Shown here: positions 9,955 to 63,450 of the stretch, piece by piece | Numbering within the stretch: position 1 is the stretch's first letter | How the letters are laid out: the number at the start of each line of letters is the position of its first letter | From: Protonemura montana | Taxonomy: Eukaryota > Arthropoda > Insecta > Plecoptera > Nemouridae | Assembly: GCA_947568835.1 (NCBI GenBank) | Contig: OX387608.1 | Location: 7,292,001 to 7,356,000 of the forward strand | Length of the DNA stretch: 64,000 nucleotides | Reading direction: 5' to 3' | Notes under the pieces: generated by a model | What the model saw: the letters and a program-made list of their open reading frames with translations, nothing else | The model's database searches: none | Told to the model about the DNA's origin: nothing | Made by a program: the position numbers and the translations under genes

Positions 9955-11085
9955 TTTGTATCCATGTGACTCTGCCCCAGTGCAACTTTCACGTGTTCGA
10001 CTAGGCATGTGACTCTGTCCCAGTGCAACTTTCACGTGTTCGACTGGGCATGTGACTCTGTCCCAGTGCAACTTACACGTGTTCGACTGGGCATGTGACT
10101 CTATCTCCGATGCAACTTTCACATGTTCGACTGGGCATGTAACTCTGCCCCAGTGCAACTTTCACGTGTTCAACTGGGCATGTGACTCTACCCCAGTGCA
10201 ACTTTCACGTGTTCGACTGGGCATGTGACTCTGCCCCAATGCAACTTTCACGTGTTTGACTGGGCATGTGACTCTGCCCCAATGCAACTTTCACGTGTTT
10301 GACTGGGCATGTGACTCTGTCCCAGTGCAACTTTCACGTGTTCGACTGGGCATGTGACTCTGCCCCAGTGCAACTTTCACGTGTTCGAGTGGGCATGTGA
10401 CTCTGCCCCAGTGCAACTTTCACGTGTTCGACTGGGCATGTGACTCTGCCCCAGTGCAACTTTCACGTGTCCGACTGGGCATGTGACTCTGCCCCAGTGC
10501 AACTTTCACGTGTTCGACTGGGCATGTGACTCTGCCCCAGTGCAACTTTCACGTGTTCGACTGGTCATGTGACTCTGTCCCAGTGCAACTTTCACGTGTT
10601 CGACTGGGCATGTGACTCTGTCCCAGTGCAACTTTCACGTGTTCGACTGGGCATGTGACTCTGCCCCAGTGCAACTTTCACGTGTTCGACTGGGCATGTG
10701 ACTCTGTCCCAGTGCAACTTTCACGTGTTCGACTGGGCATGTGACTCTGTCCCAGTGCAACTTCCCCGTGTTCGACTGGGCATGTGACTCTGTCCCAGTG
10801 CAACTTTCACGTGTTTGACTGGGCATGTGACTCTGTCTTAGTGCAACTTCCCCGTGTTCGAATTGGCAGAGCTGCTCGCTCTCGGGTCACTCCCGGTACA
10901 CTTTTTTTACTTTGAGAATTGTGACATTGCAATTGGAAAACAAATACATACACTGACAGCTAGAGATCACGTATTCAGGTGAGAGCGCTCTTGCTCGGAG
11001 CTGGCGCAAATCCTGTGGAAAGCATGACGTCATCGAGCAAGTTTCAAACCCGCCCCGGTGCAGGCCAGTCGGAAACGTCATTAAA
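9955..11085 (-). mobile_element. TIR element M, copy 1, with about 21 x 43-bp array
   Basis: Read on the minus strand, the left end (near 11085) is AATGACGTTTCCGACTGGCC followed by the family's roughly 200-bp unique part. An array of about 21 tandem 43-bp units then runs to 9955. Most units hold CACGTG and CATGTG on either side of TTCGACTGGG. The right terminal segment seen in copies 3-5 (GGGGCAGCCAGTCGAA) is missing. The short open frames across the array are a by-product of the repetition. Confidence 0.8.
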
Positions 11086-11389
11086 GTTTCCCCGCCTTTT
11101 CCTCCGAGTGTGTCTCGACGCGCTTGGTAAACACAGCAGCACTTTATTTAACTAAAAAGTGTCGACGGCATTGTGTTGTACACAACGCTCAAGGGTTTTT
11201 CAAGCGGCATTAAAAAGTTTTCCTTGCGAGGCGCTTTCCTTTCATTTCCTTGATGGCAATTCCGTGGTCGCGAACGAATTGTGTTTATGATTTCATATCC
11301 TTTCAACGTTATCCCTGTGTTTTTGCTAAACTTTCCGACGATAAAAGTTACTTGTGTGCCCACCGGGCATTGCACGACTTGGAAAGGTG

Positions 11390-11590
11390 GTGTGAGCCAT
11401 CGAGTTTATAGGTTTAGTCAGAGTTCCAGCGCTAACGTTAGCCAGTCTGCTAGCTAGATGTCTGCTTCGTTGACAAAACATTGAAGTATATGAAGTATAT
11501 AGTAGAGTTTCCAGTGATAAGAAACGTAATTTTGCCACTTTTCGTAGCTTACTCGCAGTTGAAACTGTGTTAAGGCTGTTGTATCGGGAG
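11390..11590 (-). repeat. Dispersed repeat P, diverged copy
   Basis: The reverse complement carries the P right-end blocks GCTAACGTTAGCGCTGGA and CTCTGACTAAACCTATAAAC. The P-internal block CTTACTCGCAG...GTTTAAGG-like lies at 11549-11580. The order matches other copies, though divergence is high. Confidence 0.45.
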
Positions 11591-13453
11591 CTTACTCATG
11601 TCTATATCTAGGCTTTTTGGATACAACTAATCGGCTAAACCACTTGTCCGATCGCGACAAAACAAAAACTAGGCGACTTATCACACTATTAGCAAAAGAC
11701 TGACGTTTAGAAAATAAAAAATATAATTTTGTTCTACAGTTACACACACTGTAAAAATAGGCTTTTCCGATTATTTTCAGAAATAAATCTGAGTTTTTGT
11801 AGCTACTGTAGATCTCAAATTTGCTCAATCTGTTAACACTATCAAACTACACCTACTAAAATAATTGAACCACCCATTTTGAAAAGCCTTCTTTACTAGT
11901 TATATCAGTATATATATATTAATTTTTTTAGAATGGATTTTCAGGAATATGTTCACTATACAAGATTTTTTTAGTAGCTGAAAAAGTTTTTACCAACCCC
12001 AATTAAATAATAAAAAATATGTTTGTTCCATGGACCCCCCAGAAAAACAGATGGTGGCAAATTAACCCCCCTTGTAACCTAACAGAAAAAGTTTCAATTA
12101 AAATGTTAAACTCCTCTGAAAATCAACAAATCGCAACCCGTCCTTCGCCTGACGATCTCACTAGACGATGCACCAACTTGGAAGTCGTCTACCTCGCAGA
12201 AAGCGATGCGGCCGCTCGAGCCTCGTTGCGGGACACTTGAAACGTGCCCCTGGGGACGCTTCGCATTGTGCGTGTAAAAGCGTCGGTAGCCAATGAACGG
12301 TCTGGCGTCGCCGCAAATTGCTGTCAGGTTTGCGATCATTTACCTCGTAATTACACACACGGGCCGTGACGGTTATTTACTGGTAAACTTGGCACGCCAT
12401 TGTTTTATGGGAGTGCAATTGTCATAAAACAGTGAAGCTACTGTTGTTATTTGACTTTGTCCATTCGGGGACTGCGGATAGAGAAAATATGGTTTTTGAA
12501 TCACCAGTGGGAATACTTTACGAGCACCAATTCAAATTCAGGATATAATACATTTCACTGGCTTTCGCCTTTATGTAAAAATATAGCCTTGAAACCTTTC
12601 TTCACGACTAGCAAATGTAAGTTAAAGAAAGAAATTTGCTAACGGATTATTAAAAAGGGAGGAACTTTCTGAGCTGACGCCACATTTAATATAGTTTTTA
12701 GTTTTCCCCTATGACCCAACCACCAAAGTTTATTACCAAATATTCTTTTCATTTTTTTTTTTTTGCTTTAAGTGCACATTCTTAAAAATGTGTTAATTGT
12801 TGTTAGTTTTGCCCCACTTAAGGAATTTCACAAGCTTCATTTACGTTCAGGTAAGAAAAGCAATGTTTTATTTTTATTTTCACATTTTTAGTTAATCATA
12901 TAAGTTTTTCTGAGTTTAAATTATCTTACTGTAAGCTTGTGATTTGTAAATGAATAAATATCATTAAATTCAACGAAATTTAATGCTGGATGGTTTATTT
13001 ATGGTTCAGGTACAAACTCTGTTTCAAAATTAAATTTATGACATGATCACATTCGATTTTTTTTTTAATTTGCAGTAGAGCAGAAAAAACAACATGGTTA
13101 TTAAGAGTAAGTAATAAAATAGGTCTCACAGCACCAGAAACAAAGACAAATGAAAATGGATGTCCACCGCCTAGAATTACACAAAAAAATACCAAAGCAT
13201 GCATTCAAAAAATTACCAAAAGAAATAAAATGCAAAGATGAGAATAAATAATCTTCTGACAAATGAACAAAAAAATGGTCTATGTTTATATTTCATCACT
13301 GACTGATCTGAGTTAGAGAAATTTTGTTCTACATTTAAAATCAAGCTGAACATATGTTAATCTACTGTTCTAGTCAGGTTCGGAATCGCTTTCCCGGCTT
13401 CAATGTCGTTTTTTAGGTTTGATTATAGTATTATTATATTTATTATTTATTTT
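11591..13453. other. Intergenic; GC-richer island with unassigned ORF
   Basis: A unique GC-richer island at about 12100-12460 includes a plus frame (12019-12240) whose last 35 codons are G/C-rich at third positions and end in SLRDT, and a conflicting minus frame. The adjacent TTTTATGGGAGTGCAATTG and CATAAAAC words suggest a regulatory element. No domain is recognised. The rest is AT-rich with nothing seen. Confidence 0.3.
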
Positions 13454-13842
13454 GTGGTGTTTAACGATATCTTTTTGATATCTGGGCATGCGGTACTGAT
13501 CGAATGGCGTCGGTGAATGAGTAGATGATGATGAGGAGGATGATGATGAACCTAACCTAGCCTAGAAGGGAGGAGGGGAAACCCTGTGCCGGCACGTAGC
13601 CTACTCCTGTCGAAAACTGTACCACTCGAACAACAGGATTCCTCCTCAAATCCATGCTATCGAGAGGTTGATAAGCAAGGCGAGTGAAGTTGCTGTACTA
13701 ACTTGCATCCCTCCAACCTCTCTCCCGAACAGAACTAGTCATGTGTATGATGGTCACCCATCCAATACCTGACTCAGCGCAGTGTTGCTTAACTTCGGTG
13801 ATCTCACGATAATCAGTGTTTCCAACACGCCAAACCGTTCGG
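13454..13842 (-). mobile_element. 5S-headed SINE
   Basis: On the plus strand it reads tail to head: GGTGTTTAACGA, ATGGCGTCGGTGAATGAG, the ATGATGATGAACCTAACC segment, the body, GGTCACCCATCC, then the 5S-like GTGTTGCTTAACTTCGGTGA and CGCCAAACCGTTCGG. Compared with other copies, a short piece of body around 13615-13625 is missing. Confidence 0.8.
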
Positions 13843-14328
13843 TGATTATAATAGATGGGACAACTTGAAGATAAGATAAAAATAAGTATGAGCATGACCA
13901 TAACAGTTTCCCAGATGTTATTACTAAAGAAATTACTACGACATAATGGCACGACATCACTTTTAGAAAATCGACATATTGACCTTGCAACCTCGTTGGA
14001 TAGATAAAAAAAAAAAGCCTAAAACCTAATCTCGTGATGGTAATTTTGATCTTAATATGACATCACGTGTAACACCTATTAAAAGAAGCTTCCTCAATGT
14101 TTCTATACAAATTACAATGACAATTATCGTCAATTGTCATGTGCAATTGTTGGAGATTGATGCATCAATAGCATTTTTTTTGTAATTTAATTATTATTGT
14201 TCAAAGAATTGATTTTCCGATAGGTTGCAATCAAAGAATGCAAGTACCAGCTCAGCTCACTGACTATTTCTACAATCTGGTGGATCTGTGATAGCAATGA
14301 TTGTTATAATTCTCATCGGATTATGGTA

Positions 14329-14424
14329 TCATATTTAAAGCTGTTCTTAGTGGAGACAGAACACCTTCTATCGACGAACTTAAGATAAAAAAAGGAGCGT
14401 TTCTCTAGGTTCGTGACTGCGACG
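14329..14424 (+). promoter_or_regulatory. Conserved upstream block of DUF1091 unit A
   Basis: It shares ordered words with the regions upstream of units B and C: an AT-rich CATATTTAAA word, a CTTCTATCGACG word, then GATAAAAAAAGGAGCGTTTC immediately before the start codon. The ATAAA-GAG-GCGTTTCTC motif is also kept upstream of unit D. This is a likely core promoter and 5' UTR. The exact start site is not resolvable. Confidence 0.5.
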
Positions 14425-15250
14425 ATGTGCAGGCAACGAGTGTTGCTTATTCTGGTACTGGTACTGGTACTGGTTGTTCCGAGATAAGCAAACGCCCTTA
14501 ACGGTCAGGTAAACACGAATAACCTGAACACAGTGTGCAAAGAGAATTTAAAGATTTAGTTAAAATCTTAGTTGAAAACTAAATACAACGAATCCAACGT
14601 CAAATTGGAGTTATTCGAGTTTGACAGGTTGTGACGTGGTGTAGCGTCACTAGATCAGAGTGACTGTGAGTATTCACAGCCTCATGGTCCTAATCCTTGG
14701 AGATCCGTCATTCTCATCAAATACACTAAAATCGTCTCAAAAAGCCAGTGTCCAAATAGCTCCATGGGTTGGAGCAACACCCGCGATAGGTGGAGATCGG
14801 GGTTCGAGTCCCCGTTTGCGCATCAATTTTTGAGACTGTTATAGTGTTCATAATAATAAGTTAAAGATTTATTATCTTCAGTAACGGAGTTAAGTTAATA
14901 TGTCTGCCCATTTACCACACTTACAGATCAGGTAACTTGCCAAATTATTCACTAGATGGAGGTGTGCAGTGAGGCATAGATCATTGACCATACCGTGATG
15001 AAGATGAAACTAAAAAAGCCATTAATAACCCTTAAAAAAAATCTAGATAAAAAAAAATTAAGTTTCTGATAATCAAATATTGCTTCTGATTTAGTATCTT
15101 TACAGAAGCCCAACTACAGGGCCGAGTTTGAGGGTATGACGATTCATAGAGACATCTCTGACGAGTACTACGAGTTACAATTTGGACGCATCGGGTTGAC
15201 TCCACGTTCAGTGAACCGCACCATGCTGTTAAACGCTAACTTCACGCTCA
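14425..15250 (+). pseudogene. DUF1091/MD-2-like secreted protein, unit A (truncated)
   Basis: Exon 1 is 14425-14508, ending CAG before GTAAAC. It starts with ATG and encodes a Leu/Val-rich signal peptide, MCRQRVLLILVLVLVLVVPR. It is interrupted by TAA at 14485-14487, where paralogues have a TGG codon. Exon 2 starts at 15106 after TTTACAG, opens with KPNY, and includes the conserved FGRIGL and LNANFTL words. It stops matching at 15250, where element M copy 2 begins nearby. Exons 3 and 4 are absent before unit B starts. Members of this family are secreted and thought to bind lipids, but the function here is unknown. With a stop in the signal peptide and half the gene gone, this unit is dead. 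Confidence 0.7.
14587..14860 (+). repeat. tRNA-like dispersed repeat T, copy 2 (in unit A intron 1)
   Basis: Starts ATCCAACGTCAAATTGGAG, passes the GTGACGTGG...GCGTCAC inverted motif, and ends in the tRNA-like part with TAGCTCCATGGG (A box) and GGTTCGAGTCC (B box). The arm CGGGG-TTCGAGT-CCCCG forms a perfect T stem. It is followed by TTTTTGAGACTG and an ATAATAA tail. Confidence 0.75.
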
Positions 15251-15276
15251 CTGCTGAACGTGCGTGCAGACGTGTT

Positions 15277-15972
15277 TTAATTGGTGTGCACCAGAGCAGG
15301 TTTGATACTTGCTCGATGACGTCAAGCTCTCCACCGGGTTTGCACCAGCTCCGAGCGAGAGCGCTCCCACCCGAACACGTGATCACTAGCTGTCAGTGCA
15401 TGTATTTGTTTTCTAATTGCGACGTCGAAATTCTTATAGCAAGAAAAATTCACTGGGAGTGACCCGAGGGCGAGAAACTCTGCTAGTTGAACACGTGAAA
15501 GTTGCACTGGGACAGAGTCACATGCCCAGTCGAACACGTGAAAGTTGCACTGGGGCAGAGTCACATGCCCAGTCGAACACGTGAAAGTTGCACTGGGGCA
15601 GAGTCACATGCCCAGTCGAACACGTGAAAGTTGCTCTGGGGCAGAGTCACATGACCAGTTGAACACGTGAAAGTTGCACTGGGACAGAGTCACGTACCCA
15701 GTCGAACACGTGTAAGTTGCACTGGGGCAGAGTCACATGCCCAGTCAAACACGTGAAAGTTGCACTGGGGCAGAGTCACATGCCCAGTCAAACACGTGAA
15801 AGTTGCACTGGGGCAGAGTCACATGCCCAGTCAAACACGTGAAAGTTGCACTGGGGCAGAGTCACATGCCCAGTCGAACACGTGATAGTTGCATTGGGGC
15901 AGAGTCACATGCCCAGTCGAACACGTGAAAGTTGCACTGGGGCAGAGTCACATGCCCAGTCGAACACGTGAA
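15277..15972 (+). mobile_element. TIR element M, copy 2, with about 11 x 43-bp array
   Basis: The left end is degenerate (TTTTAATTGGTGTGCACCAG). It is followed by the family's unique part (GATGACGTCA, CGAGCGAGAGCGCTCCCACC, GAACACGTGATCACTAGCTG) and an array of about eleven 43-bp units from about 15487. It replaces the 3' end of unit A exon 2. The right terminal segment is not seen: after 15972 the sequence changes to unrelated AT-rich DNA. Confidence 0.8.
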
Positions 15973-16249
15973 ATGAAGGTCACTCATTATAATCTCGCGT
16001 CCAAGCTTTTGTAAGGAGCTTCCTGAGTTCTATGTGTGGAAATCACAAAGCAAAAAATATTCAATTGTCATACGCTAAAATGAGAGCTTGACATGTGATA
16101 AGAAATATTTTTAAATCTATGTTGTGACAAAAGTTGGTTTCATAAAAGGCTTATTGGAACAATAAATTGCTATTACATGTGAAAACAAACTGAATTGTTT
16201 CTCCAATAAGTTGGATCTGTGATAAAAACGATTGCCATCATTTTCATTA

Positions 16250-16357
16250 TCATATTTTATCGTTGTTAGCTATGTGTTTAGTAAAAACAAAACGCCCTCT
16301 ACAGACGCAGTTGAAATAAAAGGAAGTGCGTTCTACTCAAAGTTTGTGAGTGCTACG
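16250..16357 (+). promoter_or_regulatory. Conserved upstream block of DUF1091 unit B
   Basis: Same ordered words as upstream of A and C: CATATTTTAT, GTTGTTAGCTATGTG, ACGCCCTCTACAGACGCAGT, then AAATAAAAGGAAGTGCG before the ATG. Similarity with the A upstream region extends back to a GGATCTGTGATA word at 16213. Confidence 0.5.
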
Positions 16358-18752
16358 ATGAGCGGGCAGAGAGCGTTGCTTGTTCTGGCTCCAGTGCTGT
16401 TCGTTACGATATGGGCAAACGCCCCCAAAATTCTGGTAAAACAAACTCGCTTTTCAATATTTCCTGTTTATAGAAAACTAGAAAATAAAAGTGTGAAACA
16501 GAACCAGGATAGGAACAAGTGCCATTCAGAATGCTGGACTGATGCGCTGCCAACTGAGCTATCCGTGCACACAGTTTTTTTGCTCTTACTTTGTGGGATA
16601 CTGGATCGTGGATATGGAAAAGTCTCAGACCGCCAATTCGAACTTCCTGAGTTCCTTTTTCTGGTTCGGATTCACAATTTTATTTTCTGGATTTTTTTCC
16701 ATCTATCGCTCACTGGTAAAAGCTCGTGTGAACTTACACAAAAAAATAAAATAAAAAACTATCAATATATACTATATATACTATGAAAACATATATTTCT
16801 ATATAAATAGATGATTTTAATATTCTGATTTCTTTTCCATTTCACTAAACAGGTAAAGGCTTGTATTTTTTCACCTATACACTCATCAACTCGTCGCTTT
16901 TATCAAACATTTCTCTATTCGCAATCCCATCCCACCTTTCTCTGTTCACCCACTTTTCTTCTATATTTCTTCTATATTAATTCTATTCTTTTTCTTCAAT
17001 ATCTTTTCGCAAGTGGCATATCCTTCTTTTCCGTGGTATTCCAACTCCCCTCTTTAAATATTACATTTCAAGCATTTTTTGGGAAGACAACTTCCTTTTA
17101 TTTACATCTCCTTTCCATATAGCTTCAAACTTTCGTTACCAATTTTAAAAGACAGATGTTCCACCAAAAACAAATTTCCACTAAAAATATGCTTTGTAGC
17201 GCACATACCGCACGTTGTTTTTACAAGTACTTAGTTCATGACTTTATTCCAACATTTGCAGTATTTAAAAAAGGATCGTTTGTTTATAAATGATAACGAG
17301 AAAGAAAATTAAGTGTCTTTGGTATCGCTAGATATGTGTCAGTGGTATTTCCATTAAATATATTTTCAAACTACTTATAAACGTAAATACCACGTAAATC
17401 ACCAAATTCTCCTTAGAATGTAGCAGTGAGCCCAGATCATCTCTCACACTGTTATGTAGTTATCAACTCTGATCACATAGCTTCTCAATTCTCAATTTAG
17501 TTTCTCAATGAAACATTCTGTTTTATGGGAACGAATTTTATTTCTAATTTTCGAAAGCCCAACTACAGAGCCCAGTTCGAGGGAATGACGATTCATAGAG
17601 ACATCTCTGACGAGTACTACGAGTTCCACTTTGGACGCATTGGGTTGACTTCACGTTCAGTAAACCGCTCCACGCTACTCAACGCTAACTTCACGCTCAA
17701 AAAGGACCTTTCAGAAAAAGCCTGGGTAAGAGGACTCTGTATATAGGGTAACGCATTTTTTGACTACTTATTTAAATGTAGTGTTTTATGGCGTTTTTGA
17801 CTGGCCTGCACCAGGGCGGGTTTGAAGTTTGCTCCATGACATCATGTTCTCCACTGGGTTTGCACCAGCTTCAGCTCCCACCTGAACACGTGCTCGCTAG
17901 CTGTCAGTGCATTCTTTTTTACCTATTGCCACGTCATAATTTATTGAGCACGAAAAATGTACTGGGAGTACCCTAGAGCGAGAATATCTTTTGCACTGGG
18001 GCAGTGTTACATGCCCAGTAAAACACGTGAAAATTGCACTGGGGTAGTGTTACATGCCCAGTCGAGCACGTGAAAGTTGCTCTGGGGCAGAGTCACATGC
18101 CCAGTCGAGCACGTGAAAGATGCACTGGGGCAGAGTCACATGCCCAGTCGAACACGTGAAAGTTGCACTGGGACAGAGTCACATGCCCAGTCGAACACAT
18201 GAAAGTTGCACTGGGACAGAGTCACATGCCCAGTCGAACACATGAAAGTTGCACTGGGACAGAGTCACATGCCCAGTCGAACACGCAGATCGCCCCCAGT
18301 GCATACCCGGGGCAGCCAGTTGAACACGCCATAATTAACTGCGTCGTGATGTGATGATAGGTTGGAACCATAAAACGGTTAGCATGAAGGCACCTTTTGA
18401 TAGAACAGAAACCCAGGCATGTCAATAAAATACATTGATAAGACAAGCGGAATATTGTGGGTTACTGTTTAGTTGGCGTTGCTCTAGCTACTCATTTTAT
18501 ACATTTAAGTGATGAATCAAGAAAAAGCTTCAAAACGTTGATCGCTGCCTGTAATATTACTTCCTAGTTATTACTTCCTAGTTCACGGTCATCGCATACG
18601 AGCAGAAGGCGAATAGAGACTACAGCTTGATCCCGGTCAGGCTATTTATCGGAACGTTTTGCCAATTGGTCAAGGGAGCACCGTTTCTATTTCGAGTATG
18701 GAGTTGGAGTTTATATGGAGTTGATGCAATACATTACCATAGCTTGTTTTAA
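16358..18752 (+). CDS. DUF1091/MD-2-like secreted protein, unit B (3'-truncated)
   Basis: Exon 1, 16358-16435, encodes a signal peptide (MSGQRALLVLAPVLFVTIWA) and ends before GTAAAAC. Exon 2, about 17558-17725, is open, with YRAQFEGMTIHRDISDEYY and FGRIGL and the donor GTAAGA. The usual AG before the KPNY codons is changed to GA, so the acceptor is probably three bases later. Exon 3 starts at 18582 after CTTCCTAG and matches paralogues through AYEQKANRDYSLIPVRLF. It then loses the family's second Cys-Pro motif, has no donor, and runs to TAA at 18750. Exon 4 is missing because unit C's upstream block follows. The open frame gives roughly 138 residues against about 199 for a full unit. It is either a truncated gene or a donor of 5' exons to unit C (see findings). 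Confidence 0.55.
17788..18332 (+). mobile_element. TIR element M, copy 3 (in unit B intron 2), complete ends
   Basis: The left end is ATGGCGTTTTTGACTGGCC. The right end reads GGGGCAGCCAGTTGAACACG then CCAT, whose reverse complement matches the left end, giving an inverted repeat of about 24 bp. Between them lie the unique part and about seven 43-bp units. Flanking bases leave a TA duplication possible but unproven. It lies 62 bp after the exon 2 donor. Confidence 0.8.
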
Positions 18753-18811
18753 TCCCGAGGCATTATTTTGCCAATCTGACAGATCTCGTAAATCGGCAAA
18801 TGACATATTTT

Positions 18812-18922
18812 CCATTTAAAAATCGGCCATTGTTAGCTCTGTGTGTGTGCAGACCAAACGCCCATCACTGACGAGCCCGTGATAAAGAGGAGAAGCGTTT
18901 CTCTAGGTCCATAAGTTTGAAG
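18812..18922 (+). promoter_or_regulatory. Conserved upstream block of DUF1091 unit C
   Basis: CCATTTAAAAATCGG, TTGTTAGCTCTGTG, ACGCCCATCACTGACG and GATAAAGAGGAGAAGCGTTT occur in the same order as upstream of A and B, ending a few bases before the ATG at 18923. It directly follows the broken end of unit B. Confidence 0.5.
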
Positions 18923-20192
18923 ATGAGCGTACAGCGAGGGTTGTTTATTCTTGCACTGTTGGTTGTAGTTCCGTTATGGGCAAACAAAATTAACATTCAG
19001 GTTAACTATGAAGACTTTATCAATCAGGTAAGATCAGCTATTCAGCGTCCGCTATATTTTTTAAAATAATGATCTGTGATTGGTTGACATAAACAAAACG
19101 CACAAGACAAATTAGAGTATTTAAGCGTTGTTTTATGCTTGTGTCGATTGTTTATTTCTTAGAGTTAAGATCCTTGTGCGCTATGCTTGCGCTTGTTGCT
19201 ATGTCAATTTTGGGTAGACCGTAGCTACGCAGACTTTGTAAAATTTCGTTGTCTTTGTTTCTTCACCAGACAACTCTAATACTGAATTGAATAATACTAA
19301 TATTAATAATAAATCTTTGCTATGTCGCACGGTTTGTGAATTGTGAATTGTAGTATTTGAAGACGGTCAAACTTTACTGGTCCGTGATGCATGTTCAAGG
19401 CTAAAAGAATTCAAATTCATTTATGGGATCTCTGTAGCTTGATAACGAACTGTTTTTTTTTTTCTAATTTTATGACTTACCAGAAGCCCAACTACAGGCC
19501 TGAATTCGAGGCTTAAGTGATTCACAGAGACGAGTTCATCGACGAGTACTACGAGTTCCACTTTGGACGCATCGGACTGACGTCTGGTTCATTGAACCGC
19601 ACCATGTTGCTCAACACTAATTTCACGCAGAAGAAAGACCATCCGGAGACTGCCTGGGTAAGATGACTCTGTAGATGGCGTGGAAAAAAAATACTGTTTT
19701 TTTCAGTCACAATTTTTACTAATTTTGAAGAAAAACTTCCATTTATTTATTTATTTTTTAACTTTTTAATGGCCACTTATTTGTAAAAAAAAAAACTTCT
19801 GTATGACAGTGTGTCTGTAGCTGCCACAGACATTTCTTAGAACTTTTGATGAGATTTTTAATTAATTGCAACACTCCTCTTAGCACAGAAATTTGCTAAA
19901 ATTCTACAGTGTGGTTTTGGTCGACGTGTTGCGGTTTCTGAAGGTTTCCTTTTTTGTTGAACTTGTTGAAGTTATGTATTTTGTTGTTGTAAATATTGCA
20001 TAATTCATGATTAGGGAACAAAATTAAATGGTAAAAATGATCACATTTAAATACCGAGTTTTCAGATGAGCACTAGTCAATATTCTGTCATTAGTTTACG
20101 GTTTAGAATATCATGATATTGCATGTTATTGATTGGTTGGAACTGAGTTGGTAACAATCTCAAAAGTAAACAATATAAACCCATCTACAATA

Positions 20193-20504
20193 ATGGCGTT
20201 TTCGACTGGCCTGCACCAGGGTGTTTTTGAAACTTGCTCAATTACGTCATGCTCTCCACCGGGATTACACCATCTCCGAGCGTGGGCGCTCCCACCCGAA
20301 CACGTGATCACTAGCTGTCAGTGCATTTATTTGTATTCGTATAGCACTGTCGAAGTTCTCAGAGCAAGAACAGTGCACCAAGAATGACCCATGGAGCTGG
20401 TAAAAAAGGTGCAAATTTCACCGGAGTTGAGTCCAATTTTGAGTCAAACCAGTAGACCGCCTCCAGTACCAAGGACGCACCGGGGCAGCCAGTCGAATAC
20501 ACTT
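20193..20504 (+). mobile_element. TIR element M, copy 4 (in unit C intron 2), array-free
   Basis: The left end is ATGGCGTTTTCGACTGGCC, followed by the unique part through GTGATCACTAGCTGTCAGTG. The right end segment ACCGGGGCAGCCAGTCGAAT follows directly, with no 43-bp units between. It is therefore either a copy that lost its array or the form that existed before the array grew. Confidence 0.75.
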
Positions 20505-21314
20505 CAAGCTGTTTACATGTTTAGAATACACCAAAAAAAATAAACTGAACACAGATCGTCTCTTAACATCCCTTCCTAGGTCACGGTTAACGCGTACGAG
20601 CAGAAGGCGAATAAAGACTACAGTTTGATTCAGCTCAGGCTGTTCTCTGGAAGAATGTGTGACGCAATCAAGCAATACCCGTTTATTTGGGAGGATCTGG
20701 CAAAGACGACCAACTATGGCGGGACGTGTCCGGCTGTCAAGGTTGGTACCAATATGACATGAGAGGTTCAATGTAAGCTCGTTATCGTTACTTATGACTT
20801 GTCCTATTCAGGATTTTTCAGTAGTAGTTGTTGTAATCTTTTATCTATATTTTAAAATAAACAATAGGGCAGAAACTTATATTTAAACACACAAGACAAT
20901 CATAAATAAGCCGACACTTTGTATTTTTTTCTTTTATATCATCTACGCCAACTTTTTCAATACCTTTTCGTCCTTTCAACTTTCCTTTTCTGCTACTTCA
21001 TTTCAATGTGTACCTTTTTCGCCACATCTGTGTGTATTTTGCCATCCTTTGTCGTTCTTTCTTTTATAACATTTTTTCGAAAGCTTTCTTGTTATTCGTT
21101 CTTCGCTCATTTCCCATCATTACCCAGTCACTTTCAACCTTTCTTTCCCAATCTTAATTCCTCTTCTCTACATTTGCTATTAAATTGACAAGAACCGTTG
21201 AGTTTAACATTCCTTAGGTGAAACCTAGCCCTCTGAAACCTTGCACATGTAAAGGCACAAACGGAGTTGTATTTTAGAGCAAGCTCTAGAAATGTGCATT
21301 TAGAGTCTTTCGCG

Positions 21315-21346
21315 CCCCCCCCCCCCCCCCAAAAAAAAAAAAAAAA
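21315..21346 (+). repeat. C16-A16 homopolymer junction
   Basis: Sixteen C followed by sixteen A inside unit C intron 3. It is length-unstable and may be partly an assembly product. A pyrimidine-rich stretch (about 20920-21180) lies just upstream and explains the long Phe/Leu/Ser-rich open frame there. Confidence 0.8.
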
Positions 21347-21534
21347 CAATAAGCTAATAGTAAGACATTTAAAAAGTAAATATTTTTTTTATTGTATACG
21401 CGATTTTGGTTAGGTAACGTTTCTAAAATTGTTGAAAAAGGTTTGTTAAGATGACCGCCAGTCACAGCCAAACACAGCCAAGCCACGGCTCAACCTCCCG
21501 TTATTATTTAACTACACATTGTAAAAGTTTTTCA

Positions 21535-21660
21535 GTGGTTCGTTAAAAACCTAACAGTCCATCAATTTTTTATACCAACCGAGCCCTTTGCAACAGTCAA
21601 CTAGAAGTTGATTGTGTATTTTAACTGTCTGTTAATTACTGAAAGTACCGCTAAATAACC
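21535..21660 (+). repeat. Dispersed repeat R, copy 2 (in unit C intron 3)
   Basis: Shares ordered blocks with 558-680: TTCAGTGGTTCG, CTAACAGTCC, CAACAGTCAA and CTGTTAATTA. Confidence 0.5.
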
Positions 21661-22223
21661 CACACTAAAGAAATAAAAGTAACCAATTATTGAATTTTAT
21701 TATCTGTCCTTTATTTTTGCTTTTAAAAAATGAGATGCATTGTGTCCAGAACTTATTAAACATCTCATTTTTTCTAACACAACTTACATCGACTGTTTTA
21801 TTAGATGCACATTATATTCCCTAGCGTTTCTCTAATGTGTAGAAATGGGGTGGCGGTCAAATTTTAAACTCCGTACGTCCGCGTGCATTGACTCCCACTG
21901 GGTACGAACAAATTTTAAATATTCCTAATACAACTGATCGCTGTCGTTGTATCATGGGCGTTGTCATCGGTTTTCAGGGTTTCTACTACGTTCGTGATTA
22001 TCATCCCAGCACGAAAATGATGCCACCGGAGATGCCAGGAATTCGATGGAAAATGGACATTATCCTCAAGACAAGCGTTCGTGGTAAAGCCATCTGGTAC
22101 TGGAGTGTCTACTTATACCTGAACAGAAACTTTTAGAGTGGGAACGTCTGTTGTTATCAAGGTCAACATAAGTAATGTCAGATTATCAAAATGTAAGCTA
22201 GATTCAGAAAAAAAGTTTTACTT

Positions 22224-22941
22224 ATGGCTTATTCGAATGGCTGCCCCGGTGCGCCCCAGGTGTACACTGGGGGCGATATTTGTCTTTAATTGGGCACGTG
22301 ACTGCCCCAGTGCAACTTTCATGTGTTTGACTGGACATGTGACTCTGTCCCAGTGCTACTTTTACGTGTTCGACTGGGCATGTGACTCAGCCCCAGTGCA
22401 ACTTTCACGTGTTCGACTGGGCATGTGACTCTGTCCCAGTCCAACTTTCACGTGTTCGACTGGGCATGTGACTCTGCCCCAGTGCAACTTTCACGTGTTC
22501 GACTGGGCATGTGACTCTGCCCCAGTGCAACTTTCACGTGTTCGACTGGGCATGTGACTCTGCCCCAGTGCAACTTTCACGTGTTCGACTGGGCATGTGA
22601 CTCTGCCCCAGTGCAACTTTTACGTGTTCGACTGGGCATGTGACTCTGCCCCAGTGCAACTTTCACGTGTTCGACTGGGCATGTGACTCTGTCCCAGTGC
22701 AACTTTCACGTGTTCGACTGGACATGTGACTCTGCCCCCAGTGCAACTTTCACGTGTTCGACTGGCAGAGTTGCTCGCTCTCGGATCACTTCCGGTGCAC
22801 CTTTTTTGCAACGAGAGAGCTAGTGATTACGTGTTCAGGTGGGAACACTCTCGGTCGGAACTGGTGCAAACCTAGAGGAGAGCTCGACGTTATCGAGAAA
22901 GTATCAAACTCATCCTGGTGCAGGCCAGTCGAAAACAACAT
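22224..22941 (-). mobile_element. TIR element M, copy 5, with about 11 x 43-bp array
   Basis: On the plus strand it opens with the right end, ATGGCTTATTCGAATGGCTG, followed by a GGTGTACACTGGGGGC hairpin and about eleven 43-bp units to about 22770. The unique part follows, then the left end, whose minus-strand reading is ATGTTGTTTTCGACTGGCC. It starts 88 bp after the stop codon of unit C, in the opposite orientation to copies 2-4. Confidence 0.8.
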
Positions 22942-23600
22942 TCGTATCACTAGTTGAAGAAAAACTAGTAACCACATTGATAAAAATATAATTAATACAT
23001 TTAGCGGAAACTGGCTTGTAAATTCATGCATACACGAAATTAGGCTTTTAGCCCGATTTCCAAGTTAAGTAGAAATAGAAAGAAACTGGATGAATACTGG
23101 ATAGCCCCATACAAACTCTTAACCCCATACAGAATACCTGTGAGATTTAAAACAAAAAACCAGGGGAGCATGTTATATATTTGATGCAGATATCTACACT
23201 TCTTGCACCCACTTTTTTCGTTTGAAATCTTCCAGGTTTTTTACACGATGCAAGGAATATGCACCAGACAAACTTACAAATAAACAGACAAGAAAGTGAC
23301 CTATTAAAAACGTGTTAAAAAAATCAGTACGCAATTATTTTTATACCTTATAAAATAAATAAAATAACCTCGTAAAAGTGGCAAAATTTTCACTGTGGCC
23401 AATTTTTACTCAATAACCCCCCGGGAAAAGGATCATTTCCGTGGGGCAGGCATCTGGGTGTCGGTACTTGGCCCCAGAACTCGTTCCGGTCTTCAGACCG
23501 TGCAATGGATGGTTCCATTGCTTGAACTTCCTGCCTCCCAGGGCCATGATCACCGACCCGCTTTGGCTGCGTTAACGGGAGCTGGTTGCATCATATGATC
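22942..23600. other. Intergenic with GC-rich segment
   Basis: 22942-23390 is AT-rich with nothing seen. 23400-23600 is GC-rich and open on both strands. The minus frame includes MALGGRKFKQWNHPLHGLKT and the plus frame is of similar length. Neither has splice support or a recognised domain. Confidence 0.3.
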
Positions 23601-23807
23601 CAGGTTATTTGAGATCAGCTGGCTGGATCCTATGCTCTATCAAGGTTATTTGAGAGCAGTTGGCTGGATCCTATGCTCTATCCATGTTATTTGAGACCAG
23701 CTGGCTGGATCCTATGCTCTATTCAGGTTATTTGAGGCCAGCTGACTTGATCCTATGCTCTATCCAGGTTATTTGAGGCCAGCTGACTGGATTCTATGCT
23801 CTATTTA
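23601..23807 (+). repeat. 41-bp minisatellite, 5 copies
   Basis: Five units spaced exactly 41 bp apart (starting near 23603, 23644, 23685, 23726 and 23767), each containing GGTTATTTGAG, GCTGGCTGGATCC and TATGCTCTAT. A sixth start at 23808 breaks down at once. Confidence 0.85.
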
Positions 23808-24041
23808 GGTTCAGTTAAAGTTTCTATGGCACAATTTGTATAGCACGGATTTGAAGAAAAATTCAAAAAGCCGAAAATACCTAAACAAGCAGACGGGAAA
23901 GTCTGCAAATGATGAAGATTGACACATTTTTTACATTTTATCATCCGAAAATATCTCTACTCTTATCTCACAACGCAACTCAAAGTGCGTTCGCAAAGCG
24001 CTACTTTTATGATAATAACAACTGTTTTATAAAAATCAAGT

Positions 24042-24129: not shown

Positions 24130-26089
24130 TCACGGCTTGTCTTCTTTATGTGTCGTTCTGGCGCGAGCATGATAGCATCGTGGTGGATTCAGTCTTCGGC
24201 TGTTTGCAAAGGACAACGTCTCTTCGGGGTGATATTGATAGGCAGAAATCAACAACTCAAAAGTACAGTTCTCGTCGACTTTTTCCACAAAGTTTTGAGA
24301 GGATTTCTTGATCAGACTTTTGGGAACGAATTCGTTCGGGCATGTAGTGTCGATTTTTATCTGTATTCCAGAAGTTTTCTTTCGATATTCGTTATTTATT
24401 AGATGATGATACATAAACACAATAAAATGCAGTTCGCCAGGTACTTCTTGACTAAACGTTTTGTTTCCATTGTAAAAGCCATTTAAATAAGCATCAATGG
24501 TAGTGAACAAAGCACGTCGTTTCATATGTTTGGTCCTTAGACGCCATTGATCTGTACGATAAGTAATTTGCTTGAAAAATGGCAGAAGACAGGCAAGCTT
24601 TCTGGCAAGTGGTTTGTCTCCAGTCTGACCAGAAAAATCCTGGACCCAAAACCAACTTTTACTTATTGTATACTGTACGTGAATTCGTGACCGAAATTCA
24701 TTGCCATCTATTCTCGCTTCATCACGAGTGACTCCTTTACAAGCTTCCAGGAGAGAAAGAAAGGTGATTCCGGACAGCATGTCCTGCGCGTGAGCATTGC
24801 CAAAGCAGTTGCCAGGAACAAAAAAAAAGTTTAAATCTCGTTCAAGCGATGTAGAAAAGCAAAAATCTTGTAAATAGTTCAGTACGTTCAGTCCGATTAA
24901 AGTTGAATTAAAGATCTCTTGGCTCGTGAAACAATCTTTGATGTCTGTCGTTATGTTTAAGCGATTCTCGACAGTGTCCAGGATATCGCCAAGGTTGTGA
25001 AAATTAAATGACGATACTGTTACGTTCCATACAATGGCCTTCACCATTGAGAAGTGCGATGCCAAGGACTCTAGGATGTGGACTTGGAAGGCGATATTCT
25101 CAATCGGAACTTCATGACGAATATGAGCATTTCTTTCTGACAGAACCCGCTTAAAGTTGCTCTCTGCGACTAGTAGCTCAGCGCGCACTTTTTTCTGATA
25201 CAAAATACAATCGATTTGTTCAGACGATTATTTAGGTACTATCAGCATATCTCTTAGGACTTTTGTAAATCGCAGAAGAAACCCATTTTTTTTGTTGGTA
25301 TTTATGCCTCGTATTACAACACGTTTTAACCCTGAATTTAGTTAATAGCTCACATCATCTGAATTTCTCTGCATAAGGTAGGAGATTGCCGTGACAATTG
25401 TCTTAATTACCACTTAATCTACGGGTTGTGAAAGTTGTTAGACTGAATCTCAAAATAGAAGGATTTGGGTTAGCAATTTTAGCTAGCCCTTTTGAAATTT
25501 GGAGCAAAAACAATGTGTCGGTGTGAATTTAAATAATTTGCTGAGTCAGTCAAGTAAATTTCGTGTTTGAAAATGTGATAAGCTGGGCCTAATCGAATTA
25601 TTCAGGATAAATACAAATAGAAATAATACAATTCTTAAACCATTGTCAACAAAAGTATTTAACGTATTGAAAGACATGAATTGGCCTTTTTTGTAGCGGA
25701 AAAACTATATTAACACTAAGGTAATGTAGGAAGTAGTCTGTGGTATTCCAAATGAAGAATATTTAAGTCATGGTCGATACAAATAAGCCAAGTCGTGCAA
25801 AGAGATCGCCGGATTGGGTTTAAATCCTACCTAAGGCACCTACCTAAATAAGCTTTAATTAACAAAATTTTCTTACTTGAAATTTAATGAATAATCGTAT
25901 CAAAATGCCATGGCTTATGTGTCCGAACCGCATGCACACTTCTCCGAAAGTGTTGAGGTCTTTGTAACAATCCGCTCGAAGAAAAATACCCTCCAGTATC
26001 TCGTCGGGGAGGTCTGTGAAGGTCACAGGACATCTCCTTGCCGTTTTGCGGTTCAGATCACGAAACCCTGTTTTTGGCGTTGAAAACAT
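24130..26089 (-). CDS. F-box protein, two exons
   Basis: Exon 1 runs 26089 to 25877 and ends ...RLFIKFQ before GTAAGA. Exon 2 runs 25194 to 24130 after TTTTGTATCAG and opens KKVRAELLVAE. The junction is phase 0 and the product about 425 residues. Residues 21-60 form an F-box: PVTFTDLPDEILEGIFLRA, then NTFGEVCMRFGHI. F-box proteins bind Skp1 and bring substrates to SCF ubiquitin ligases. The remaining 360 residues contain no LRR, WD40 or Kelch repeats that I can see. They are rich in aromatic residues, with blocks such as HVQYTISKSWFWVQDFSG and ALFTTIDAYLNGFYNG, and may be an unlisted substrate-binding domain. The frame is also open for some distance 5' of the chosen ATG, so a small upstream exon is possible. 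It lies antisense between DUF1091 units C and D and looks intact. Confidence 0.75.
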
Positions 26090-26834
26090 TCCGCGACAGA
26101 ATGTCAAAACGTTTCTTTGGGGTGCAAAAATTTGAAGGTTATGCCATTTTTGTTGCCTTTTAGTTGCTATAGTTTTAAAAAAATTATAGAAAGAATGGAA
26201 GAAGGAATTTTGGGTCTGAAATTTTCGGCAAATTGTATTTAGAACTAAAACTTTTTACATATAAACTAAATAAATATTTACCCCATATATTTATACAAAC
26301 TAACCCTTAAATAAGGTAAGATATATATATTTGGTTCAGTCAAAGAAGATTTACATACATACTTTATCATTTGACATATTGTATTGTATTATTTACATTA
26401 AGTCAATTGTTGTGAAAACCAGAGCTCTATGCGGAGATTTTGAAAGTGTCCTTCTAATTGAATTAAAATCGGTATAACCGCCTTGTCGGTAGCGAGCATC
26501 ATCAGAAGAATCATCATATATAAAAAAAAATGCCGATATATTTTTCCTGGTAGCGAAATTGAGTCGCGTCATCAAATCGACCGTTTAGTTTTGTGAGCCT
26601 TGCATAGAAACGCGACAGATTTGCTAAACATAAGTTAAAAAAAGGAAGTGCAGAAGTAAAGCGTGATTCTACGGGGTTGTCCCTAAACACATAACATCAT
26701 TATCTATTGATACAAGCTTCCTGTATTCCTGCTAATCGCTTGGAATTGTTTGGCTAGCAAAATTAATCTCCAATCTGGGAGAGCTGCAACGGAAATGGTC
26801 TCTGTTGTAAAACAAATAGGATATCGAAGCGACA
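26090..26834. other. Intergenic between F-box gene and unit D
   Basis: AT-rich. It should hold the divergent promoters of the minus-strand F-box gene and plus-strand unit D. A 60-residue minus frame at 26393-26575 has no support. No other feature was recognised. Confidence 0.35.
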
Positions 26835-33510: not shown

Positions 33511-33939
33511 TGGGGTTCAACGACGCACTGTTTTTACAACTGGCCCTGCGGCACTGGTCTTATGGCGTCGGTGAATGAGCGGATGATTATGAGGATGATG
33601 ATGAACCTAACCTAGCCTAGAAGGGGGGAGGGGAAACCCAGTGCCGGGACGTAGCTTACTCCTGTCGAATAGCACCAAGGGGACCACCGGCTTAACGTCC
33701 TTTCCGAAGGACGGTACAACGCGAACATCTGAATTCCTCCACAAATCCATGCTGTCAAGAGGTTGACAAGCAAGGCGAATGAAGTTGCTGAACTAACTTT
33801 CATCCCTCTAACCTCTCTCCAAAACAGAACTGGTCATGTGTATGATGGTCACCCATCCAATACCTGACTCAGCGCAGTGTTGCTTAACTTCGATGGTATC
33901 ACGAGAAGCGGTGTTTTCAACACAACAAACCGTTTGGTA
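33511..33939 (-). mobile_element. 5S-headed SINE, near full length
   Basis: Runs from GGGGTTCAACGACGCACTG (tail side) through the full body to GTTGCTTAACTTCGATGG, TCACGAGAAGCGGTGTT and ACAAACCGTTTGG (5S-like head). The 63-residue minus frame is the usual SINE body frame. Confidence 0.8.
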
Positions 33940-35420: not shown

Positions 35421-35849
35421 ATTGATTGATTACTGTGTTTAACAACTCATTTTTATGAAAATAGACTCTGTTACACTAGTCTAATGGCATCAGTGAATGA
35501 GTGGTTGATGATGATCATAATCTTGCCTAAAAAAGAAGGAGTGGAAACCCGGTGCCGGCACGTGACCTACTCCTGTCGAAGAGCACCAAGATGACCACCG
35601 GCTTAACGTCCCTTCCGAAGGACGGTGCAACGCGAACAACAGGATTCCTCCACAAATCCATGCTGTCGAGAGGTTGATTAGCAAGGCGAACGAAGTTGCT
35701 GTACTAAAGTTCATCCTTCTATCCTCTCTTCCGAACTGAAATGGTCATATGTATGATGGTCACCCATTCAATATCTAACCCAGCGTAGTGTTGCTTAACT
35801 TTAGTGATCTCACGAGTGTTGATGTATTCAACCCTCTTAACGGTTCGGC
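35421..35849 (-). mobile_element. 5S-headed SINE, near full length
   Basis: Preceded by an ATTGATTGATT tail. It runs TGTGTTTAACAACTC, the body, TGGTCACCCATTCA, GTTGCTTAACTTTAGTGATC, to CTTAACGGTTCGG. The end of the 5S-like head is diverged. Confidence 0.8.
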
Positions 35850-43225: not shown

Positions 43226-43622
43226 TCATTGATTGATTATTGTGTTTAACGACGCACTGTTTTGATAACCGGCCGTACGATACTATTTTAGTGGCGTCGG
43301 TGAATGAGTGAATGATGATGAGGATGATGATGAACCTAAGCTAGCGTAGAAGGGAGAAGGAGAAACCCGGTGCTGGCCCGTAGCCTACTCTTGTTAAAGG
43401 GCCCCAATGGGACCACAGGCTTAACTTCCCTTCCGAAGGACGGTACAACTCAGGTTCCTTCACAAATCCTTATTGTCGTGAGGTTGATAAGCAAAACCTC
43501 TATTACAAACAGAACTGGCTATGTTTGTGATAGTCACCCATCCAATACCTCACTCAGCGCAGCGTTTCTTAAATTCGGTGATCTCACGAGAACCGGTGTT
43601 CCCAACACGCCAAACCGTTCGG
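43226..43622 (-). mobile_element. 5S-headed SINE plus adjacent inverted fragment
   Basis: ATTGATTGATTATTGTG tail, the body with a deletion of about 35 bp, then the head (GGTGATCTCACGAGAACCGG, CGCCAAACCGTTCGG). At 43626-43700 a plus-oriented 3' fragment follows directly (ATTATCATCATCCACCCATT, CAGTGCCACAGGTCAAAT), so two SINE pieces meet here. Confidence 0.75.
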
Positions 43623-57199: not shown

Positions 57200-58302
57200 G
57201 CTAATAATGCTAACTTTTAAATTCAAGGAATGCTGAAAGACGAAATTAAATAGGTGTTGAACTATGCGCTGGGTGTTTTACTTAATCACAGTGTATTTTG
57301 GGTCTGAGGCGTATGGCCGCTTTGTTTAAGTGCTTTGCACTTATTTTCTAAACTTATTATTCACGCCGTGTTTTACAATGTTTTAAAATCAACTTAAATT
57401 CCCTATAATTCGATGATTGAACCTGCTAAGTTTTCACGGGGAAAACAGCTCAGCAACAGAACCAAGAGGAAATATCAAGAAAAATATCTGCTTTTAAGCA
57501 AACCTAGTTTAATTATAAAACCTAAAATCTAGTTAAAATAAAACCCAGTTTAAACTAAAAGACCCAGCAAATATTTTGTAATATCACTGTCTAAAATATC
57601 TAGAAAATTCAGTTCTCACCGAGTTCTCTAAAATTGTACATTCAACTTTCCCTATAAATTAGTCAACGTCCACTGACGATCTTTTTTTTGTGTAACGATA
57701 TAGAATTTGCACGCATCAATTCATGTGCGTGCACTCAAGCGCTGTAATGCCTACGCACTTGCCAATTCGTTTGTCGAGTTCTGCTCGCCTGAATTTCATT
57801 GCAAATTGAATTTGCTTCAAATCACTTCACACAAAAATCAGAGCGTTGGGCGGTGTAATTGTAAAAGCTAATTATTGAGATGGCATTAAAAAAAAATGTG
57901 TATATATATATTAAAGTTCTTTCGAACTGCCTCAAAATATCGGTTTTTTTTCACTGGGGTTGACGATTTTTACGACGTTTATATTCACGGAAAGGTCACT
58001 CGTGGGCAGAAAAACAAGAAAAATTATGCAAATTGTGTGGCTGGCTGAAAATCTGAATAAACACTAGAAAAAGTTTGGTATTGCTTTGTCAATATTTTTT
58101 CTTGTGATTTAAGTTTTGTTCAATTCGATAAAAGTGGACAGGAACTTGGCCAACTGACTTAGCTGAGAGACTGGTCAGTGCTTCTTACATCTACCGGCAA
58201 CCAAAAGCTAACGAGAAAAAGTGACACAGCACACCACACGAGGTTCTTGAAACTTGTATTAATTAAATAATTCCTCGTCTTTTTGGTGAGATCACTTGGA
58301 CT
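57200..58302. other. Intergenic, nothing recognised
   Basis: AT-rich throughout. Confidence 0.35.
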
Positions 58303-58515
58303 TGCTCTGCGGGCTGCGTTCAGGGGCACCTAGTGGAGGAGCCATGATTGCTCTGCGGGCTGCGTTCAGGGGCACCCAGTGGAGGAGCCATGATTGCTCT
58401 GCGGGCTGCGTTCAGAGACACATAGTGGAGGAGCCATGATTGCTCTGTGGGCTGCGTTCAGGTGCACCTAGTGGAGAAGCCATGATTGCTCTGCGGGCTG
58501 CGTTCAGAGACCCTT
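58303..58515 (+). repeat. 46-bp minisatellite, about 4.5 units
   Basis: Units start at 58303, 58349, 58395, 58441 and 58487, an exact 46-bp spacing, each with TGCTCTGCGGGCTGCGTTCA, GGGCACC and GTGGAGGAGCCATGAT. The unit also occurs as two inverted copies at 33332-33430. Confidence 0.85.
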
Positions 58516-61716: not shown

Positions 61717-62166
61717 TATTATTAGATTATTTATGGTGTTTAGCGACGCACTATCTTGACATCTGGCCATGCGGCACTGGTCTAATGGCGTCGGTGAATG
61801 AGTGGATGATAATGATGAGGATGATGATGAGCCTAACCTAGCCTAGAAGGTAGGAGGGAAAACCTTGTGCCGGCACGTAACCTACTGTTGTCGAATAGCA
61901 CCAAGGGGACCACTGGCTTAACGTCCCTTCCGAAGGACGGTACAGCTCAAACAGCAGGATTCCTCCACAAATCCATGCTGTCGAGAGGTTGATAAGCAAG
62001 GCTAATGAAGTTGCTGTACTAACTTTCATCCCTCCAACCTCTCTCCCAAACAGAACTGGTCATGTATATGATAGTCACCCATTCAATACCTTACCCAGCG
62101 CAGTGTTGCTTAACTGCGGTGATCTAACGAGAACCGGTGTTTCCAACACGCCAACCCGATCGGTCA
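61717..62166 (-). mobile_element. 5S-headed SINE, full length, nested
   Basis: Full copy from a TATTATTAGATTATTTA tail and TGGTGTTTAGCGACGCAC to the head GTTGCTTAACTGCGGTGATC and CGCCAACCCGATCGG. Flanked by TTCCTTCAC (61708-61716) and TTCCTTTAC (62167-62175), a 9-bp target-site duplication with one mismatch. It is inserted antisense into an older copy of the same family. Confidence 0.8.
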
Positions 62167-62282: not shown

Positions 62283-62959
62283 CTTCCAACAAATAACCTG
62301 ACAACGCACTCTTTATTGCACAGATGGTCTTTGATTACCTCGCATCTGTCTAGCAAAAAAGTGGCGCTCTTCGATCACTCAACAACGCAATCAAACCTGG
62401 GTTTGACTAGATTCAATGCATCACGTCTACTGTTAGTAGAAGCTCACCGCGCAATAACCATCTTTCCGAAGCAGCACGCTGCGTTTCGATATCCTCTCAG
62501 CGCCCCCCGTCGCCGTTTATGAGATTCTCGCTGGCTTTAATTTGTTTGTTCGCCTCCGGCCAACGGATCGAATGCATTGACAAGTCCTAGCAATGTTGGT
62601 TCAACGCCTCGCCCCCGTTCGCCCCCGAGTTTGAGGAAAACAAACAGAACGCGTTTGTTACAAGTTTTTAGAAACGGTTCACTTGATCTTTTTTAGCTGC
62701 CGTCCATTATTTTTATAACAACAAGCTTTTCTCACGGAGTTTCGCTTTTTATTTTTTTAATACCACTGCAATTAATGGCTGTTTGGTATTGGTTATAACA
62801 CGGCCTTTATTATGGCTTGACGGCCTGTTCCCTGAATTAATTGGTCATTTAAACCCTTTTGTAGTTCATTAACGATGGTTTAAATATAGACCATTACAGA
62901 CCGCGGTTACCTAACGCAATACAACCACCATTTCGAGGTATTTTTTTAGTATGCCGTGA
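62283..62959. other. Intergenic, nothing firm
   Basis: A GC-richer patch at about 62450-62620 has conflicting short frames. The rest is AT-rich. Confidence 0.3.
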
Positions 62960-63450
62960 GAACCCTTGTTTCACCAACCTATTACTATTACATTGTGATG
63001 AACTGCCCGATGCCGGGTACGGGTTACTTGTTTAAGATTGCCCTTGTTTCACCCACCTATTACTATTACATTGTGATGAACTGCCCGATGCCGGGCACGG
63101 GTTACTTGTTTTAGATTGCCATGACAACCCTTTTTTTACCCACCCATTACTATTACATTGTGATGAACTGCTCGTTGCCGGGCACGGGTTACTTGTTTTA
63201 GATTGCCGTGACAACCCTTGTTTCACCCACCCATTACTATTACATTGTGATGAACTACCCGATGCCGGGCACGGGTTACTTGTTTTAGATTGCCATGACA
63301 ACCCTTGTTTCACCCACCCATTACTATTACATTGTGATGAACTGCCCGGTGCCGGGCACGGGTTACTTGTTTTAGATTGCCATGACATCCCTTGTTTCAC
63401 CCACCCATTACCATTACATTGTGATGAACTGCTCGATGCCGGGCATCGAG
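62960..63450 (+). repeat. 87-bp satellite-like array, about 5.5 units
   Basis: The word CATTGTGATGAACTGC starts at 62991, 63069, 63156, 63243, 63330 and 63417. Spacing is 78 bp once, then exactly 87 bp. Each unit includes a GCCCGATGCCGGGCACGGG hairpin-forming core and TTGTTTCACCCACCCATTAC. Because 87 is divisible by 3, the minus strand stays open for 122 codons with a 29-residue repeat; this is not a gene. Confidence 0.9.

Follow-up and report, generated by a model that had tools for sequence, protein, structure and literature searches.

Within a 64,000-nucleotide stretch of the genome of the plecopteran Protonemura montana (contig OX387608.1, here C11, positions 7292001-7356000 of the 258-Mb assembly GCA_947568835.1; hereafter the window), we found five related copies of a small, non-coding element that carries a tandem array of 43-bp units. 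The element very likely represents a family of non-autonomous cut-and-paste DNA transposons, that is, of miniature inverted-repeat transposable elements (MITEs), with 17-bp terminal inverted repeats (TIRs), YTWA target sites and an array derived from its own end, and was probably mobilised by a PIF/Harbinger-related (PHIS) transposase. The family is dispersed, with defined ends and a common architecture; its repeat unit resembles one terminus, copies of the same insertion differ in array length, and both giant and orphan arrays occur.

Dispersal and architecture of the family

The TIR 18-mer had 60 exact matches over ten contigs, and a right-end 26-mer matched 178 times in the genome with up to two mismatches, the reversed patterns used as controls giving none in either case. 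Searching with the unique part of the element returned 679 candidates at first look, of which 40 were scored and all 40 matched. The family is present on at least ten contigs. Between copies on different contigs the flanks differ and the ends, unique part and array are the same; the family is therefore a dispersed mobile element, with TIRs at both outer ends and many copies with fixed ends at unrelated sites. A sequence-only reading of the window had suggested a family of TIR elements whose internal 43-bp minisatellite can expand, a suggestion borne out by the recurrence of this arrangement at many sites; its statement that the element occurs only around an array of DUF1091 genes holds inside the window and fails genome-wide.

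Read in orientation, a full copy begins with a left TIR (consensus ATGGCGTATTCGACTGG), followed by about 40 bp of subterminal sequence; next come the 43-bp array and the unique part, which is about 200 bp long, and the copy ends in an inverted right TIR (consensus, read inwards, ATGGCGTTTTCGACTGG). As aligned, the 17-bp TIR is ATGGCGTWTTCGACTGG, although one or two letters at its start may be part of the target. Left and right ends were found as 46 pairs. In the loci examined, one of which (L024) also holds a second copy in the opposite orientation, the array is found on the upstream side of the unique part, in the orientation of the latter, and we propose that the array has one place and one orientation in the element, between the left end and the unique part. 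The family thus shows the hallmark of tandem-repeat-carrying MITEs, a tandem array that lies inside a TIR element and varies in copy number, with 0-42 units in the copies sampled and 171 in one.

Longer contigs have a lower TIR density (Spearman -0.94 over the ten contigs with matches), ranging from 0.03/Mb on C1 to 1.3/Mb on C14, so that the family is about 40-fold sparser on the largest contigs than on C14; none of the 60 exact TIR matches falls on C16 (at least 29.5 Mb). Because matches to the transposase family PF13359 follow a like pattern, being also sparse on C1 and dense on C14 by eye among the matches listed, the gradient may be general to transposons in this genome. Arrays of at least four units were found at 1 of 10 loci on C1-C4 versus 21 of 36 on C5 and C11-C15 (p 0.011), or at 0 of 5 versus 12 of 24 when TIR-sampled loci alone were counted (p 0.06). 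On C15, at about 5.531-5.536 Mb, partial and full copies of the family are clustered (L036 and L106), one of them being cut at both ends and holding at least 31 units.

Target site and mobilisation

The flanks read Y-T-W before ATGGCG, with an overall pattern YTWA...TWAR. Counting ends with no more than three TIR mismatches (45 left and 63 right), T was present at -2 in 36 left and 53 right ends (89/108 in total), C at -3 in 18 and 31 (only 49/108 in total), and A or T at -1 in 38 left ends (17 A, 21 T) and 57 right ends (30 A, 27 T). According to PMC4482050, the target of PIF/Harbinger is TWA, that of ISL2EU is AT within A-AT-T, and that of NuwaII is C-TNA-G; of these PHIS targets, that of NuwaII or that of PIF/Harbinger would fit the flanks of the family. 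The YTWA target points to PHIS mobilisation, and a relative of the PIF/Harbinger transposases would probably be the enzyme involved, a best guess drawn from the target alone. With a TWA duplication the family TIR would begin with TGG; in the same source most NuwaII TIRs begin with GG and those of PIF/Harbinger usually with A or G.

Alternatively, the element could be ISL2EU-like, with a 2-bp AT duplication, or duplication-free, having a palindromic TWATWA target and not duplicating TWA as PIF/Harbinger does, which we regard as possible although the less probable of the two. The TIR would then begin with GG, as given for ISL2EU (PMC4482050), and AT is present at both ends, compatible with its duplication. 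In 13 of the 35 informative pairs the variable base on the left is not that on the right, and among the best-kept pairs the concordance fell short of significance (p 1.0, 0.13 and 0.16 with at most one, two and three TIR mismatches; 7, 18 and 29 pairs, respectively). Concordance nevertheless leans to TWA when more decayed pairs are admitted (Fisher one-sided p 0.027 for both 34 and 41 pairs, with at most four and six TIR mismatches, respectively), and A and T are about equally frequent as the base that precedes AT, whereas the A-AT-T target of ISL2EU is described as conserved (PMC4482050).

Several results weigh against the interpretation of the family as a TWA-duplicating, PHIS-mobilised MITE with a self-derived array. 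The variable base of TWA agrees between left and right in 22 of the 35 informative pairs among 46 (63%; binomial p 0.088), or in 29 of 46 after adding the 7 of 11 concordant pairs read by eye (p 0.052). No empty site was found among 22 and a further set of about 22 joined flanks (common words being skipped in the search; the second set held about 22 of 35 further joined flanks, several of them shortened, plus one flank alone). In a comparison of the flanks with the fetched loci none was spanned as an empty site, and the candidate site at L106 gave none either, its second element being truncated on either side. No autonomous copy with the same TIRs, which in PIF/Harbinger would encode DDE_Tnp_4 and a Myb/SANT protein, was found: of at least 154 PF13359 matches in the genome, none of those listed lay, by eye, near a TIR pointing to it, and the closest TIR among them (C14:6973799), 2.6 kb off, belongs to L099, a paired copy pointing away. 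Three fetched transposase loci contained chance-like TIR matches only, and no TIR pairs 1.5-10 kb apart were seen by eye among the matches listed. As for the array, 0 of 65 inner branches were starred in a tree of the unique part, and array presence was unclustered (17 changes versus 18.0 in shuffles; three rows were set to 'array' by eye where the parser had missed units), so that the tree is compatible with one array origin or with many; a single origin was not retained, the tree having no resolved inner branches.

Origin of the 43-bp unit

When the 43-bp unit is aligned with the left terminus, 23 of 25 bases are identical; the alignment is split by an insertion of 10 bp that have no counterpart in the left end, and its score of 26 was equalled by 0 of 500 shuffles. 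The minisatellite therefore appears to be the left end of the element itself, copied and expanded, although the direction of descent, from terminus to array and not the reverse, is the one we infer. A core, CGTNTTCGACTGG, is common to the unit and the right TIR, and the motif TCACGTGTTCG..TGGG recurs in the unique part (15/17), these matches being reached, each taken alone, by 12 and 5 of 500 shuffles, respectively. The repeated terminal motifs may correspond to putative protein-binding sites.

It seems unlikely that a host minisatellite was instead captured by the element and that its likeness to the terminus is secondary, as proposed for miDNA4 (see below). The existence of a TIR-less array on C4 and the 10 bp of the unit that are absent from the left end would suit such a capture; the close match of the unit to the left terminus, the reappearance of the terminal motif in the unique part and the commonness of short copies with 0-1 unit speak against it.

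Helitrons and Helentrons have no TIRs, carry a 3' hairpin and insert between A and T or between T and T. In the present family both outer ends carry TIRs, which are inverted copies of one 17-bp sequence out to the outer boundary (no hairpin search was made), and a non-autonomous element of the Helitron/Helentron type (HINE-like) is thereby very improbable, even though central tandem repeats are common in that type and the array resembles those of oyster HINE elements as reviewed in PMC9659126.

Array length and turnover

In 46 end-sampled loci (L059 and L077, second views or duplicates of L058 and L075, were left out, as were L087, L088 and all later loci) each copy had either 0-1 unit or five and more; in the full set of 68 unique-part copies the parser counted a single copy with 2 units and a single one with 4. 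The state with 0-1 unit may be nearly stable because little can misalign. Two giant arrays lie at the opposite extreme, one of 171 units on C14, beside a left TIR and with a truncated unique part, and one of 169 units on C4 with no element ends. The C/T strings of both contain long repeated blocks (by eye), and in the C14 array rare variants recur at 13- and 33-unit spacing. Arrays would thus grow to about 170 units, and the one on C4, from which the rest of the element has disappeared, if it was ever there, may be a nascent satellite.

L075 and L077 represent a single insertion that lies in two duplicated segments; their flanks are 89% alike over 151 bp and 96% over 108 bp, and their arrays of 15 and 9 units have no private variant in common; the variants found in both (unit positions 7, 27 and 29) each occur in at least 20 arrays. 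Arrays therefore turn over after insertion. One-sided support for turnover comes from L036 and L105, with 9 versus 42 units and 92% likeness across the unique part, the right end and some 120 bp of flank, and from L026 and L092, which have the left flank in common, L092 being without an array and L026 holding a short degenerate stretch. In L097 and L098, which are 99.7% alike, array length is the same.

Rare variants were shared within arrays in 231 of 4224 pairs, about twice the 111 (standard deviation 15) obtained with units shuffled among arrays. The mean pairwise difference between units was 7%, versus 12-17% between the window unique part and its best matches. Divergence from the consensus, calculated for the 44 of 68 copies with at least three units, was 4.7% for units versus 7.0% for the unique part (p 0.0004) and 4.2% versus 6.0% without CpG (p 0.001), but 5.2% versus 5.5% without CpG, CA and TG positions (p 0.51). 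Mutation at CpG-type positions can account for the lower divergence of units, and genome-wide unit homogenisation was not retained. Because rare variants are shared within arrays and the lower unit divergence arises only through CpG-type positions, we read these data as blocks being duplicated and lost locally, with no homogenisation across the family. Arrays would change by blocks of whole units, through unequal exchange or replication/repair slippage, also after insertion.

Two other readings of array structure were discarded. Unit position 27 has a C/T dimorphism, with the T form in 47 of 68 unique-part copies, and the order of T forms, counted from either end, was not common to elements, as it would be if arrays were copied as fixed strings. 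A two-unit (86-bp) step was suggested by an early excess at even lags; with unit pairs counted once, 18 of 500 shuffles were as high, and for the two giant arrays 35 and 10 of 200 shuffles (lag up to 12) and 200 and 6 of 200 (lag up to 40).

Short copies diverged more from the consensus than array copies, by 12.1% versus 7.4% (21 and 47 copies, some of which were chosen because they resembled the window copy) and, in end-sampled loci only, by 13.9% versus 9.0% (14 and 11 copies, p 0.035), which is suggestive of the short copies being older. We also considered that the array might be a tunable string of putative transposase-binding sites, in which unit number sways mobilisation and selection at the level of the copy, not drift alone, favoured long arrays until these were freed as satellites; this is conjecture, to which we assign a low probability.

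Copies and neighbouring sequences in the window

The five copies span 9955-22941, have about 21, 11, 7, 0-1 and 11 units (Table 1) and are all joined by the unique part (BLAST, 76-84% in the main pieces). The arrays detected with Tandem Repeats Finder (TRF) and the BLAST links agree with the sequence-only description of a unique part of about 200 bp accompanied by 0 to about 21 tandem units. That description also gave all five copies TIRs, and here it stands in part: the five related copies are real, but only 17788-18332 and 22224-22941 keep both TIRs with 1-3 mismatches each, and the left end is missing in 9955-11081 and 15277-15973, whose arrays run out into other sequence. With up to three mismatches the proposed terminus matched seven times in the window, against 0.11 expected from shuffles, one match (15870-15886) being internal to an array and not a true terminus. 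Five copies within 13 kb among related exons, and the presence of some copies elsewhere in duplicated segments such as L097 and L098, might suggest a locally duplicated gene-cluster segment, its minisatellite spread only by segmental duplication, but the same ends on ten contigs with differing flanks refute this and leave it barely any credibility.

Table 1 Copies of the element in the window.
Feature	Position	Strand	Description
Copy 1	9963..11081	+	Array 9963-10868 (TRF, 21.0 units); unique part 10869-11064; right TIR 11065-11081 (2 mismatches); without left end
Copy 2	15277..15973	-	Right end decayed, from about 15277; unique part to about 15484; array 15485-15973 (TRF, 11.4 units); without left end
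Copy 3	17788..18332	-	Right TIR 17788-17804 (1 mismatch); unique part; array 17991-18285 (TRF, 6.9 units)
Copy 3, left end	18286-18332	-	TIR 18316-18332 (2 mismatches); both ends kept in copy 3
Copy 4	20193..20505	-	Short form, no TRF-detectable array (0-1 degenerate unit); right TIR 20193-20209 exact; left TIR 20489-20505 decayed
Copy 5	22224..22941	+	Left TIR 22224-22240 (3 mismatches); left subterminal sequence to about 22290; array 22291-22765 (TRF, 11.1 units); unique part
Copy 5, right end	22925-22941	+	Right TIR (2 mismatches); both ends kept in copy 5

The assignment of the neighbouring genes to DUF1091 was not upheld. An exon-by-exon search with PF06477 had its single genomic match on C14 (28 bits against a cut-off of 25) and none in the window, and Pfam searches of eight window open reading frames (ORFs) and two short peptides returned no DUF1091. 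On the minus strand, 24130-26254 holds a 365-codon open frame without a Pfam match, adjoining an ORF with a weak F-box-like match below the cut-off. Other repeats of the window are a degenerate ACCTA (TTAGG-type) tandem repeat at 1608-1796, perhaps interstitial and telomere-like and of a type that would suggest an arthropod host; a dispersed repeat with TTAACGTCCCTTCCGAAGGACG at 1196-1298, 33609-33711, 35526-35622, 43333-43440 and 61835-61937, with shorter pieces, present also in fetched loci; an 87-bp tandem repeat at 62944-63503 whose frame is open for 155 codons on both strands; and further minisatellites at 23598-23811 and 58302-58507, with 41-bp and 46-bp units, respectively.

Relation to known elements and implications

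Three sequence strings of the family had no match in the published papers searched. The sequence-only reading called the family new-looking, which is apt for its sequence and not for its kind, as MITEs with tandem repeats have already been described; we see here a new family of a known kind, in which a terminus-like repeat and post-insertion turnover are both well supported. Satovic and Plohl reportedly described, in 2013, tandem-repeat-containing MITEs in the clam Donax trunculus, where the likeness, by title only, is that of tandem repeats inside a MITE.

Foldback elements such as Tetris have long, internally repetitive TIRs, unlike the present family, in which the TIR is of about 17 bp and the array is on one side only. 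Tetris of Drosophila virilis is nevertheless similar in that its TIR-derived repeats grow into satellite-like arrays, as the TIR-related repeats do here (PMC4079207, PMC9659126). Two reviews (PMC12628747, PMC9659126) list Xstir/Xmix, miDNA4 and clam elements as tandem-repeat MITEs and include a route from MITE to free satellite. For the Xmix MITE and Xstir of Xenopus (Hikosaka and Kawahara 2004), one review places the source of the repeat inside the MITE and the other in the TIR (PMC12628747, PMC9659126). Like our family, this MITE occurs with and without a tandem array; by these descriptions it differs from ours, whose unit matches one terminus and whose arrays stand at one internal place. 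In miDNA4 of Xenopus tropicalis (Scalvenzi and Pollet 2014), a Tc1/mariner-type MITE, the repeat was proposed to be captured (PMC12628747, PMC9659126). It is similar to our family in its variable internal array and in the proposed route to a free satellite after end decay, which the C4 orphan and the 171-unit C14 copy would fit; in our family, by contrast, the repeat seems to come from the element itself, and PHIS is suggested by the target.

One genome thus holds several stages: a short MITE, a MITE with a minisatellite, an array of 171 units next to a TIR and another of 169 units that stands free. Its duplicated insertions serve as natural experiments on how arrays turn over, and the passage from transposon to satellite can be put to the test in this family. 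Should the units prove to be binding sites, the length of the array would be a trait of a mobile element that can be measured.

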